From positions 1-42,421 of IMG/VR virus record IMGVR_UViG_3300044971_001337: a DNA stretch of 42,421 nt; one strand, 5' to 3'. Source of the stretch: a virus. The notes under the pieces were generated by a model. It was not told the DNA's origin. It worked only from the letters and a program-made list of their open reading frames with translations, and did not search any database. Both the position numbers and the translations under genes were made by a program. Below are positions 3,884 through 29,202 of this stretch, piece by piece. Numbering within the stretch: position 1 is the stretch's first letter; the number at the start of each line of letters is the position of its first letter.

Positions 3884-4804
3884 TTACGCCGGGAACACGC
3901 GAAATGGACGGGAAACGGAAGGCTTAACAACGGCCTCGTATACGTCCGGGAACTTGGATTTGAGCGCCTTGGAATCGACGCGCATTGATGTTTGAGGCTT
4001 GCAGAGCACACGGAAGCCGGGAGCTATTGCGCCAGCCCGGTCGCCGAGCAACCCCATCGCTTCAGCCTTCACGCTATCCATGGCCTCCTCTGCCTCGTCG
4101 CGAACCTCGCGAAGTTGCAGGTACTCCTGCGCCAAGTCGGCCAGCGCCGGGATTTCGGCGTCGGTGTCGTCGGCGTCTACGGATTCGAGCAGCGCGACGC
4201 CTTGGCAGGTATGCCGCCATTCGCAAGACTGGCAGCGCTTATCGGACACCGGCAGGCGGTCGGGTTCGCCGTTGCCCTGTACCATCTCCCAGAACTGCGC
4301 CACCATCTCGCGAACCAGATCAAATGCTTGCGCGTCGAAGGCAACCTCGAAGTGATCGAACCGCCAGTTACTCGGTTCCAGAATCGCGAACGCGCCCCAG
4401 CGGTAACGCGCGTGACCCATGTACCACTGGATCTGAAGTTGGTACGAGAGCGGCAAGCCCTCCTTCTGGAACTTGCGGAAGTTGCGCTCGTTGGCCGACT
4501 TGGTTTCGAGGATGCCGGGACCGCGCGGGTCGTTGAGAATGATGCGGTCGGGCTGGCCGATCTCGTAATCCCTCTGCCCTTGGATCGTCTTGCGGCGGCG
4601 CACGTCATTGCCGGTCTTCTCGCAGTACTCCTGCACAATGAGCGGTTCCAGCTTCGTGCCGCGGATGAGATGACCTTTGAACTCCACGGCGTAGTCCGGC
4701 TCGACGCCGCGTTTCTGATACCAGAGCTTCCGGGCGCATCCGTAGGGCGGCGCGTTGACGACGCTGCCGATGTCACTCCCGCCGATGTGTTTGGTTCTGT
4801 CCAT
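3884..4804 (-). CDS. YqaJ-type phage recombination exonuclease
   Basis: The ATG at 4804 with GAGGAAAC upstream gives 306 aa. The frame stays open further upstream, but that part has no coding character. The protein starts MDRTKHIGGSDIGSVVNAPP, the usual YqaJ/lambda-exonuclease opening. The PD-(D/E)xK residues are visible: Glu in GTKLEPLIVQEY (about 53), Asp in IGQPDRII (86) and ETK (100-102), followed by YQLQIQWYMG (121-130). A later CQSCEWRHTC motif could bind metal. The C-terminal third is a helical extension. It degrades one DNA strand to prepare single-stranded ends for the RecT-like protein encoded next. Confidence 0.9.
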   Translation of the reverse strand: MDRTKHIGGSDIGSVVNAPPYGCARKLWYQKRGVEPDYAVEFKGHLIRGTKLEPLIVQEYCEKTGNDVRRRKTIQGQRDYEIGQPDRIILNDPRGPGILETKSANERNFRKFQKEGLPLSYQLQIQWYMGHARYRWGAFAILEPSNWRFDHFEVAFDAQAFDLVREMVAQFWEMVQGNGEPDRLPVSDKRCQSCEWRHTCQGVALLESVDADDTDAEIPALADLAQEYLQLREVRDEAEEAMDSVKAEAMGLLGDRAGAIAPGFRVLCKPQTSMRVDSKALKSKFPDVYEAVVKPSVSRPFRVFPA

Positions 4805-4955
4805 GTTTCCTCGTTGAGACAATACTGGGCCGCTGCGCTGCAAGAGCGCCGCTTCGTTGGTTTGGCCCCGAGAGGGCGCTGTGCCCAGGACGTAAGATGG
4901 TGCAGTTGCAGCTACCCTTCTCATGCCCACAGCGCCCACTCCGGGCCACGCCGGA
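4805..4955 (-). promoter_or_regulatory. exonuclease leader with a 10-bp inverted repeat
   Basis: This 151-base stretch has no convincing gene. It contains a perfect inverted repeat, GGGCGCTGTG at 4874-4883 and CACAGCGCCC at 4928-4937, with a 44-base loop. It lies between a small membrane-protein gene and the exonuclease start, so it may be a structured leader or an operator. No clear -35/-10 pair was seen. Confidence 0.35.
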
Positions 4956-28045: not shown

Positions 28046-28369
28046 TTACCCCTCCCGCCTGATCCTCACCTCCGCCGCCGTCTTACGGGCGTGGCATCGG
28101 AGGCACAGCGCTTGCAGGTTCGACCGGTCAAGTCTCGGCCCACCATCAGCCAGCGCGACGATGTGGTCTACCATCTGCGAGGCGTTGATCTGGCAGTGTC
28201 GGCAGACTGGTTCCTCCGCGCGAGCCATGCTGGACAGCCGTCCCCAGGTCGCATCGTATCCACGGCGGGTGGAGTCGGGTCTTAGGTCAGGTGCTCGCTG
28301 TTGCTCGGGGCATCTCCCCTGGTGCGCTGCTCTACATCGGGGGCACCAGCGAGGCGGGGCGAGGGGCAT
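28046..28369 (-). CDS. HNH endonuclease beside terminase
   Basis: A 107-aa frame with ATG at 28369. It has an N-terminal Cys cluster (CPRCRAAHQGRCPEQ), STRRGYDATWGRLSS, then PVCRHCQ, the HNH core MVDHIVALADGG, and LDRSNLQALCLRCHARKT. Phage HNH proteins next to terminase are required for cos cleavage and packaging in HK97-like phages. There is no ribosome site before the start; instead, the 3' strand of a long RNA stem ends two bases upstream of it (28372), so expression may depend on that structure. Confidence 0.92.
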   Translation of the reverse strand: MPLAPPRWCPRCRAAHQGRCPEQQRAPDLRPDSTRRGYDATWGRLSSMARAEEPVCRHCQINASQMVDHIVALADGGPRLDRSNLQALCLRCHARKTAAEVRIRREG

Positions 28370-28371
28370 AT

Positions 28372-28493
28372 AAGGCAGTTAAAGCGAGAGCCGTGCTAGG
28401 TCCTCAGTTATTCACCGGGTGGGAGGACTCCGCGCAATCCCGGTCCAGATGCCATCTGTTCACACGGCCGATGGCCCACGCTTCAACTGCCCT
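28372..28493 (-). ncRNA. candidate structured RNA with H-type pseudoknot, upstream of HNH gene
   Basis: Read as minus-strand RNA, 28493-28479 and 28386-28372 form a 15-bp stem with two G.U pairs. Those two positions would be A.C mismatches on the plus strand, so the structure fits minus-strand RNA, the same direction as the genes. Inside are GCCGTG/CACGGC (28468-28463 with 28395-28390), a CAGAT/ATCTG hairpin (28446-28458), and two crossing stems. ACCGGG (28444-28439) pairs with CCCGGT (28419-28414), and GTCCTC (28428-28423) pairs with GAGGAC (28405-28400). The crossing makes an H-type pseudoknot with 10-, 3- and 8-base loops. It fills the gap before the HNH gene. It could be a regulatory leader, a ribozyme-like RNA, or DNA structure of a cos site. 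Confidence 0.55.
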
Positions 28494-28523
28494 ATGTCTC
28501 CAAGAACGACCGATCAAACCGTC

Positions 28524-29101: not shown

Positions 29102-29174
29102 CGCCGTTCGGGTGCTGGACTCTTTTGCGCTGTCCCAGGCAAGCGGTAGAATCGGCTAAACTCTACAGGGGCAG

Positions 29175-29202
29175 GATATACCATGGGCTGTGGTGGTGTC
29201 AA
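29175..29202 (-). promoter_or_regulatory. sigma70-like promoter of the late (head-tail) operon
   Basis: On the minus strand a perfect TTGACA (29197-29202) and TATATC (29175-29180) are separated by 16 bases. Transcription would begin near 29168, ahead of the gene at 28724-29101 and the structural genes. The TGACACAG repeat cluster begins 37 bases upstream of the -35, as expected for an activator-controlled or repressed promoter. Confidence 0.65.

Follow-up and report, generated by a model that had tools for sequence, protein, structure and literature searches.

A conserved double-pseudoknot RNA of phages, in many relatives carrying a hammerhead ribozyme

The window analysed here is a stretch of viral DNA of 42,421 nucleotides (IMG/VR record IMGVR_UViG_3300044971_001337, positions 1 to 42,421). 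A gap at 28372–28493 separates a 107-aa HNH ORF (28046–28369, minus strand; PHROG HNH match, E 1.7e-22) from a run of short ORFs without an assignment. Upstream of it are genes for helicase and primase, and downstream those for terminase, portal and capsid; the minus strand encodes them all. The first-pass annotation had interpreted the gap as a folded minus-strand RNA, and this is borne out: the RNA of 28372–28493(−) reaches a minimum free energy of −54.9 kcal/mol (z −3.51), with 0 of 200 shuffles folding as well, compared to z −2.44 for the plus strand. ARAGORN found no tRNA or tmRNA in the window. About 680 nt upstream of the element, at 29173–29202 on the minus strand, a promoter-like TTGACA-18-TATCCT (a consensus match only) represents a possible start of the late transcript. 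In the order of the RNA, the features are:

28370–28495, minus: whole element with outer stem P0, from the fold; R2 model match at 28388–28480(−)
28481–28495, minus: P0 5' strand AUAGGGCAGUUGAAG, optional outer closing stem
28476–28480, minus: N1 CGUGG, conserved start of module 1
28470–28475, minus: X1 5' strand GCCAUC, pseudoknot 1
28463–28469, minus: P1 5' strand GGCCGUG, inner stem
28457–28462, minus: module 1 L3, UGAACA (family form UGACA)
28451–28456, minus: X1 3' strand GAUGGC, pseudoknot 1; bases of the earlier 'hairpin'
28445–28448, minus: central helix 5' strand CUGG, with a conserved AU before it
28439–28444, minus: S1 5' strand ACCGGG, pseudoknot 2
28435–28438, minus: short linker AUUG; hammerhead ribozyme at the equivalent place in 67 of 102 relatives
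28429–28434, minus: N2 CGCGGA, start of module 2; in relatives, the predicted hammerhead cut lies 2 nt upstream of G[UC]GGA
28423–28428, minus: X2 5' strand GUCCUC, crosses S1
28414–28419, minus: S1 3' strand CCCGGU
28406–28413, minus: module 2 L3, GAAUAACU, almost invariant
28400–28405, minus: X2 3' strand GAGGAC
28396–28399, minus: central helix 3' strand CUAG
28389–28395, minus: P1 3' strand CACGGCU
28370–28384, minus: P0 3' strand CUUUAACUGCCUUAU
28046–28369, minus: downstream HNH endonuclease ORF, 107 aa; neighbour, not part of the RNA

Comparison with relatives reveals that the conserved core is composed of two H-type pseudoknots, joined through the CUGG:CUAG helix, plus one long-range pair. 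Each module follows the same plan (CGUGG, X strand, CA, Y strand, A-containing loop, X' strand, CU(G/A)G, Z), and the two modules exchange strands, the Y strand of each pairing with the Z tail of the other and the CUGG and CUAG strands pairing together. The long-range contact links the fourth base of N1 with the C/A of GAAUAA(C/A) and is G-C in 34 of 41 aligned relatives and U-A in 7, with zero exceptions. Just 5–7 unpaired nt separate the P1 5' from the X1 3' strand, and the core contains the long invariant unpaired runs CAUCU and AAUAA. A single pseudoknot had originally been drawn from two crossing 6-bp stems, our S1 and X2, both of which have strong covariation support. The inner stem of that model is likewise real and supported by covariation, except that in the family register it has 7 bp instead of 6 (GGCCGUG 28463–28469 : CACGGCU 28389–28395). 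Its 5-bp hairpin CAGAU/AUCUG, on the other hand, is not conserved; the bases belong to X1 (GCCAUC 28470–28475 : GAUGGC 28451–28456). X1 in turn crosses the inner stem P1, and the RNA therefore has two pseudoknots, not one.

The 15-bp closing stem of the first model is also real. In the window it can be extended to 28370/28495, beyond the gap, giving an RNA of 126 nt around a core of about 90 nt. The stem had been placed two bases before an HNH start codon devoid of a ribosome site. The ORF indeed lacks such a site, and once extended the stem ends directly at the ATG (28367–28369). An outer stem is present in 12 of 59 relatives, as compared to 41 of 11,590 swapped flanks (0.35%), and varies in sequence. 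As judged from these flanks, P0 is an optional add-on, one of a class of outer stems unrelated in sequence. Two G.U pairs, possible only on the transcribed strand, had been cited as evidence for RNA. This argument fails, given that one such pair is A.C in the RNA of the close relatives L006 and L007. In the same two relatives, G and A are exchanged between the arms at one position relative to the window, as if the arms had been swapped. A mobile element with terminal inverted repeats was rejected, as the element is single-copy within the window record and the outer arms are missing from most relatives.

We aligned 41 relatives, taking out the variable linker, and scored the 30 named pairs. Standard pairs made up 97.8% versus 78.4% in shuffles, 23 of the 30 pairs had changes on both sides versus 15.4 in shuffles, and the covariation score was 0.564 versus 0.172 (reached by 0 of 500 shuffles) and 0.06–0.12 with the partners slid by one column, the shuffle controls ignoring relatedness among the 41 sequences. 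Individual helices were paired at 99.6% (X1), 91.9% (P1), 98.2% (central CUGG:CUAG), 100% (S1) and 100% (X2); the central helix shows no double change and is supported by conservation and a G-U/A-U exchange. Relatives lacking compensatory changes had been named beforehand as evidence that would speak against an RNA. The outcome favours the RNA, and the compensatory changes exclude a coding region across the gap. Moreover, 80 elements were picked by their conserved unpaired letters alone, and all six pairs form in X1 in 80/80, in X2 in 77/80 and in S1 in 77/80, so the pairing is not a product of how the sequences were selected. A second subtype (35 sequences) forms the same stems, with X1 paired at 97.6% (67.5% shuffled) and X2 at 99.0% (72.3% shuffled), S1 lying nearer its shuffle (94.3% versus 83.8%). 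Comparison of these sequences thus establishes the structure of a real and strongly conserved RNA.

Word matching for the pseudoknot core across 50,697 phage records identified Arthrobacter phages Constance and Karkharias and Microcystis phage Mwe-JY26, the last with its copy inside a tRNA array. Exact patterns of unpaired letters recovered viral contigs by the dozen and, from the genome records of cellular organisms, three more contigs, many matches of two pattern scans being chance coding matches that were discarded. Further carriers include Mycobacterium phages Gaia and phiGD24-3, Enterobacter phage SDFMU_EhYP, Pectobacterium phages Pappous and Taid, and Dickeya phage Setonix. Prophage copies occur in 15 of 5,426 complete E. 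coli genomes, and the listed E. coli records have zero annotated features beneath the match. The final count of 102 distinct elements is a lower bound, as about 10 further copies were seen and left uncounted, including some with GAACAAC or GAGCAAC letters. According to their ending, the elements fall into two subtypes, CUAG (60) and CCAG (42). The R2 model recovers the window copy at 28388–28480(−) with 68.7 bits (E 1.5e-13), the identical relative L005 being in its training set. Plasmids that were searched gave no match to the element, and neither did 298 other genomes from the phylum of the Asticcacaulis record when scanned by R2, a model tuned to one subtype and weak on long-insert copies. 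The Streptomyces R4 match was rejected, as it has hammerhead-like letters only and the core is absent. In Pectobacterium phage Pappous (L206:3013-3129), a hypothetical CDS, probably spurious, is annotated over the RNA, and a tRNA-Met follows directly.

In 67 of the 102 distinct elements, the core harbors a hammerhead ribozyme, recognised by CUGANGA, GAAA, three stems and an NUH cut site. It occupies the place of the window's AUUG linker between the modules or, in permuted forms, the 5' flank. The cut triplets are GUC (43), GUA (17) and others (7). The predicted cut lies 2 nt before G[UC]GGA in 67/67, partly by construction, since the search was confined to its neighbourhood; with the position left freer, an earlier run gave 2 nt in 35/35. 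The hammerhead is thus predicted to cut exactly one nucleotide before module 2. For one insert, the Rfam model Hammerhead_HH9 gave E 4.6e-6, below the gathering score. The window copy lacks the CUGANGA/GAAA core, the three stems and the NUH site, its linker being just AUUG. The earlier suggestion of a small ribozyme hence finds no recognisable counterpart in the window and is matched by the hammerhead in the corresponding loop of about two thirds of the relatives. Two hammerhead-free relatives, L028 and L064, have in common an unexplained linker motif, GAGAUACCACAU. In L057, L059 and L063, the hammerhead carries a very long stem III insert (linker of ~96 nt) with GGAG and ATG-like letters, possibly a small ORF or an extra domain. 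Phage PaP3 (L215), whose hammerhead has been reported (PMC3088659), was rejected as a family member: it has a hammerhead-like site at minus-strand offset ~1394, near the tRNA and terminase end of its genome, and no double-pseudoknot core could be recognised.

The repeated module with swapped pairing gives the sequence a pseudo-two-fold plan, suggesting that the two modules arose by duplication. In addition, 12 of the 102 elements are circularly permuted. Here the RNA begins with module 2, a hairpin closes P1, and the opening of the chain lies between S1 and module 2. Such forms occur in Enterobacter phage SDFMU_EhYP, Pectobacterium phages and E. coli prophages. Permuted copies with the hammerhead on the 5' side lie at L085:2460-2660, L208:6001-6207 and L155 ~4660-4830, in a T7-like Enterobacter phage and enterobacterial prophages, where RefSeq annotation is absent. 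The body thus tolerates different strand connections, being open at P1 (with or without outer stem), interrupted by the hammerhead between the modules, or permuted with a hairpin-closed P1. From this freedom we infer that it is the folded body, not its position in cis, that selection has kept.

We then compared the element with known RNAs. For the window copy and five relatives, Rfam 15 gave no match to the core at gathering score and only chance-level matches at lax thresholds; the core is a family outside Rfam 15. We found it described in no open-access paper, the search having covered the open-access literature, so an earlier description elsewhere is possible. The family is widespread in many unrelated phages and apparently undescribed. 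HDV-like ribozymes, including theta ribozymes, form nested pseudoknots, and theta ribozymes lie near phage tRNAs. This class (P1-P2-P3-P1.1-P4) was rejected, as the element has 5–7 unpaired nt instead of a hairpin at the P3 position and gives no Rfam match. The packaging RNA of phi29 is a phage RNA of ~120 nt with a pseudoknot-like fold, but differs from the window element in context and structure, again without an Rfam match. RNAs C and D of phage T4 are likewise small and stable and are encoded in a phage tRNA cluster, yet they are unrelated, with no conserved motif in common and no model match. A tmRNA was rejected as well: in relative L022, the tmRNA is a separate gene, lying beside a tRNA array and the element on a large phage contig (L022:3523-3882). 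GOLLD and ROOL are also structured phage RNAs of unknown function, often found near tRNA islands (PMC12286853), but exceed 600 nt and have other structures, whereas the window element has ~126 nt and no Rfam match. Hammerhead surveys have described phage and prophage examples and called their role open (PMC6155905, PMC3088659). What distinguishes the present inserts is that the hammerhead is a module within a larger conserved RNA, which it is predicted to cut at a fixed place.

The genomic context of the family varies. Relatives reside in tRNA arrays, between capsid and tail genes, and between antiterminator Q and holin, and the genes downstream encode holin, tail tube, tRNAs, capsid or terminase. 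Terminase and HNH families are the commonest downstream proteins, and the window copy, in front of the packaging genes, therefore occupies one of several usual places. Most copies are not beside a tRNA gene; 25 of 102 lie within 500 nt of one, and 25/25 of these share its strand. In the lambdoid prophages of E. coli, a promoter-like sequence and a terminator-like hairpin directly precede the permuted form, which is placed downstream of Q and before holin. From what is known of lambdoid phages, this arrangement would fit a late, antiterminated transcript. In Arthrobacter phage Constance, the element is set back by ~0.8 kb from the end of the genome as deposited. Among 50 records, many of which are fragments, no protein partner is common to most carriers. 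A TROVE (Ro60) gene is present in four (L039 on G022, L126 on G050, L106 on G047, L022 on G011); these genomes span 151–266 kb, and the four distances between gene and element are 1.4, 1.7, 7.1 and 7.9 kb. This proximity recalls the Y RNA/YrlA partners of Ro60, but 46 of the 50 records have no TROVE gene, and a Y-RNA structure is not seen in the element. RtcB occurs in 7 of the 50 records, and in G022 it is also found ~3 kb away. Co-occurrence with TROVE and RtcB may simply reflect the RNA-repair islands of large phages (PMC7824862).

While the family follows directly from the comparison, its function can be inferred from these features. We consider, with moderate confidence, that the element is a stand-alone noncoding RNA of the phage which acts in trans. 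It would be made as part of late or tRNA transcripts, be released from them by the hammerhead, by terminators or by processing of the tRNA type, and then bind a protein or RNA. The window copy, at the head of the HNH-terminase operon, has no hammerhead, so other nucleases would have to release it, or it would act within the transcript. Our leading guess, given the location near tRNAs and the TROVE genes in four large phages, is that the RNA serves translation or the handling of RNA in infected cells. Several observations weigh against a stand-alone RNA. The window copy abuts an ORF start without a ribosome site and may thus have a cis role in its phage; the prevalence of terminase and HNH neighbours downstream could mean a cis role in late transcripts; and most copies lie away from tRNAs, with no partner protein common to most carriers.

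The main rival, to which we assign a distinctly smaller chance, is a cis processing or protection element, whose body blocks exonucleases or sets transcript ends for late mRNA or tRNAs while the hammerhead trims there. The element often heads late operons with TerL, TerS or HNH genes downstream, directly follows a terminator-like site in E. coli prophages and, with tRNAs near, is always on their strand, and the predicted cut position of its hammerhead is fixed. However, the invariant unpaired CAUCU and AAUAA and the tertiary pair exceed the needs of a roadblock, and circular permutants keep the body, yet swap the side facing upstream. It is improbable that the core has ribozyme activity of its own (cleavage, ligation or both), with the hammerhead supplying or consuming 2',3'-cyclic phosphate and 5'-OH ends. 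Many invariant unpaired nucleotides within a compact pseudoknotted fold, and the hammerhead embedded in about two thirds, would suit such an activity, but the topology is unlike that of known self-cleaving ribozymes, no Rfam ribozyme matches the core, and no invariant cleavage-site context was found outside the hammerhead. A regulatory leader or riboswitch of the HNH-terminase operon, as considered initially, would explain why P0 ends at a start codon without a ribosome site; with downstream genes as heterogeneous as holin, tail tube, tRNA, capsid and terminase genes, and with most relatives lacking P0, we regard it as very improbable. Finally, part of a cos site or a packaging RNA like that of phi29, also raised initially, is scarcely credible despite the adjoining HNH-terminase genes and the Constance copy near a genome end, since that copy lies off the end itself, relatives are internal (tRNA arrays, capsid-tail, Q-holin) and selection preserves pairing in the RNA, where G-C gives way to A-U, not the DNA sequence.

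Going beyond a stand-alone RNA that would act in trans, the family could represent a new class of phage RNA machine: a fused duplicate of a homodimeric H-type pseudoknot, whose function would lie in a body with strand connections that can be cut or permuted. Many phage hammerheads would exist to open this body at one defined nucleotide, and in late infection it would work together with proteins that handle RNA, either of the phage or of the host (possibly Ro60 or RtcB). We consider this wider proposal rather doubtful. Within a small RNA, the family combines a two-fold internal repeat with circular permutation that occurs in nature. It is found in familiar laboratory systems, namely Arthrobacter phage Constance, Mycobacterium phage Gaia and E. 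coli prophages, where genome annotation presently leaves the element blank. For a set of phage hammerheads, it offers a direct, testable answer to their open role (PMC6155905), because they have a fixed place inside a double-pseudoknot RNA and are predicted to cut it one nucleotide before its second module.
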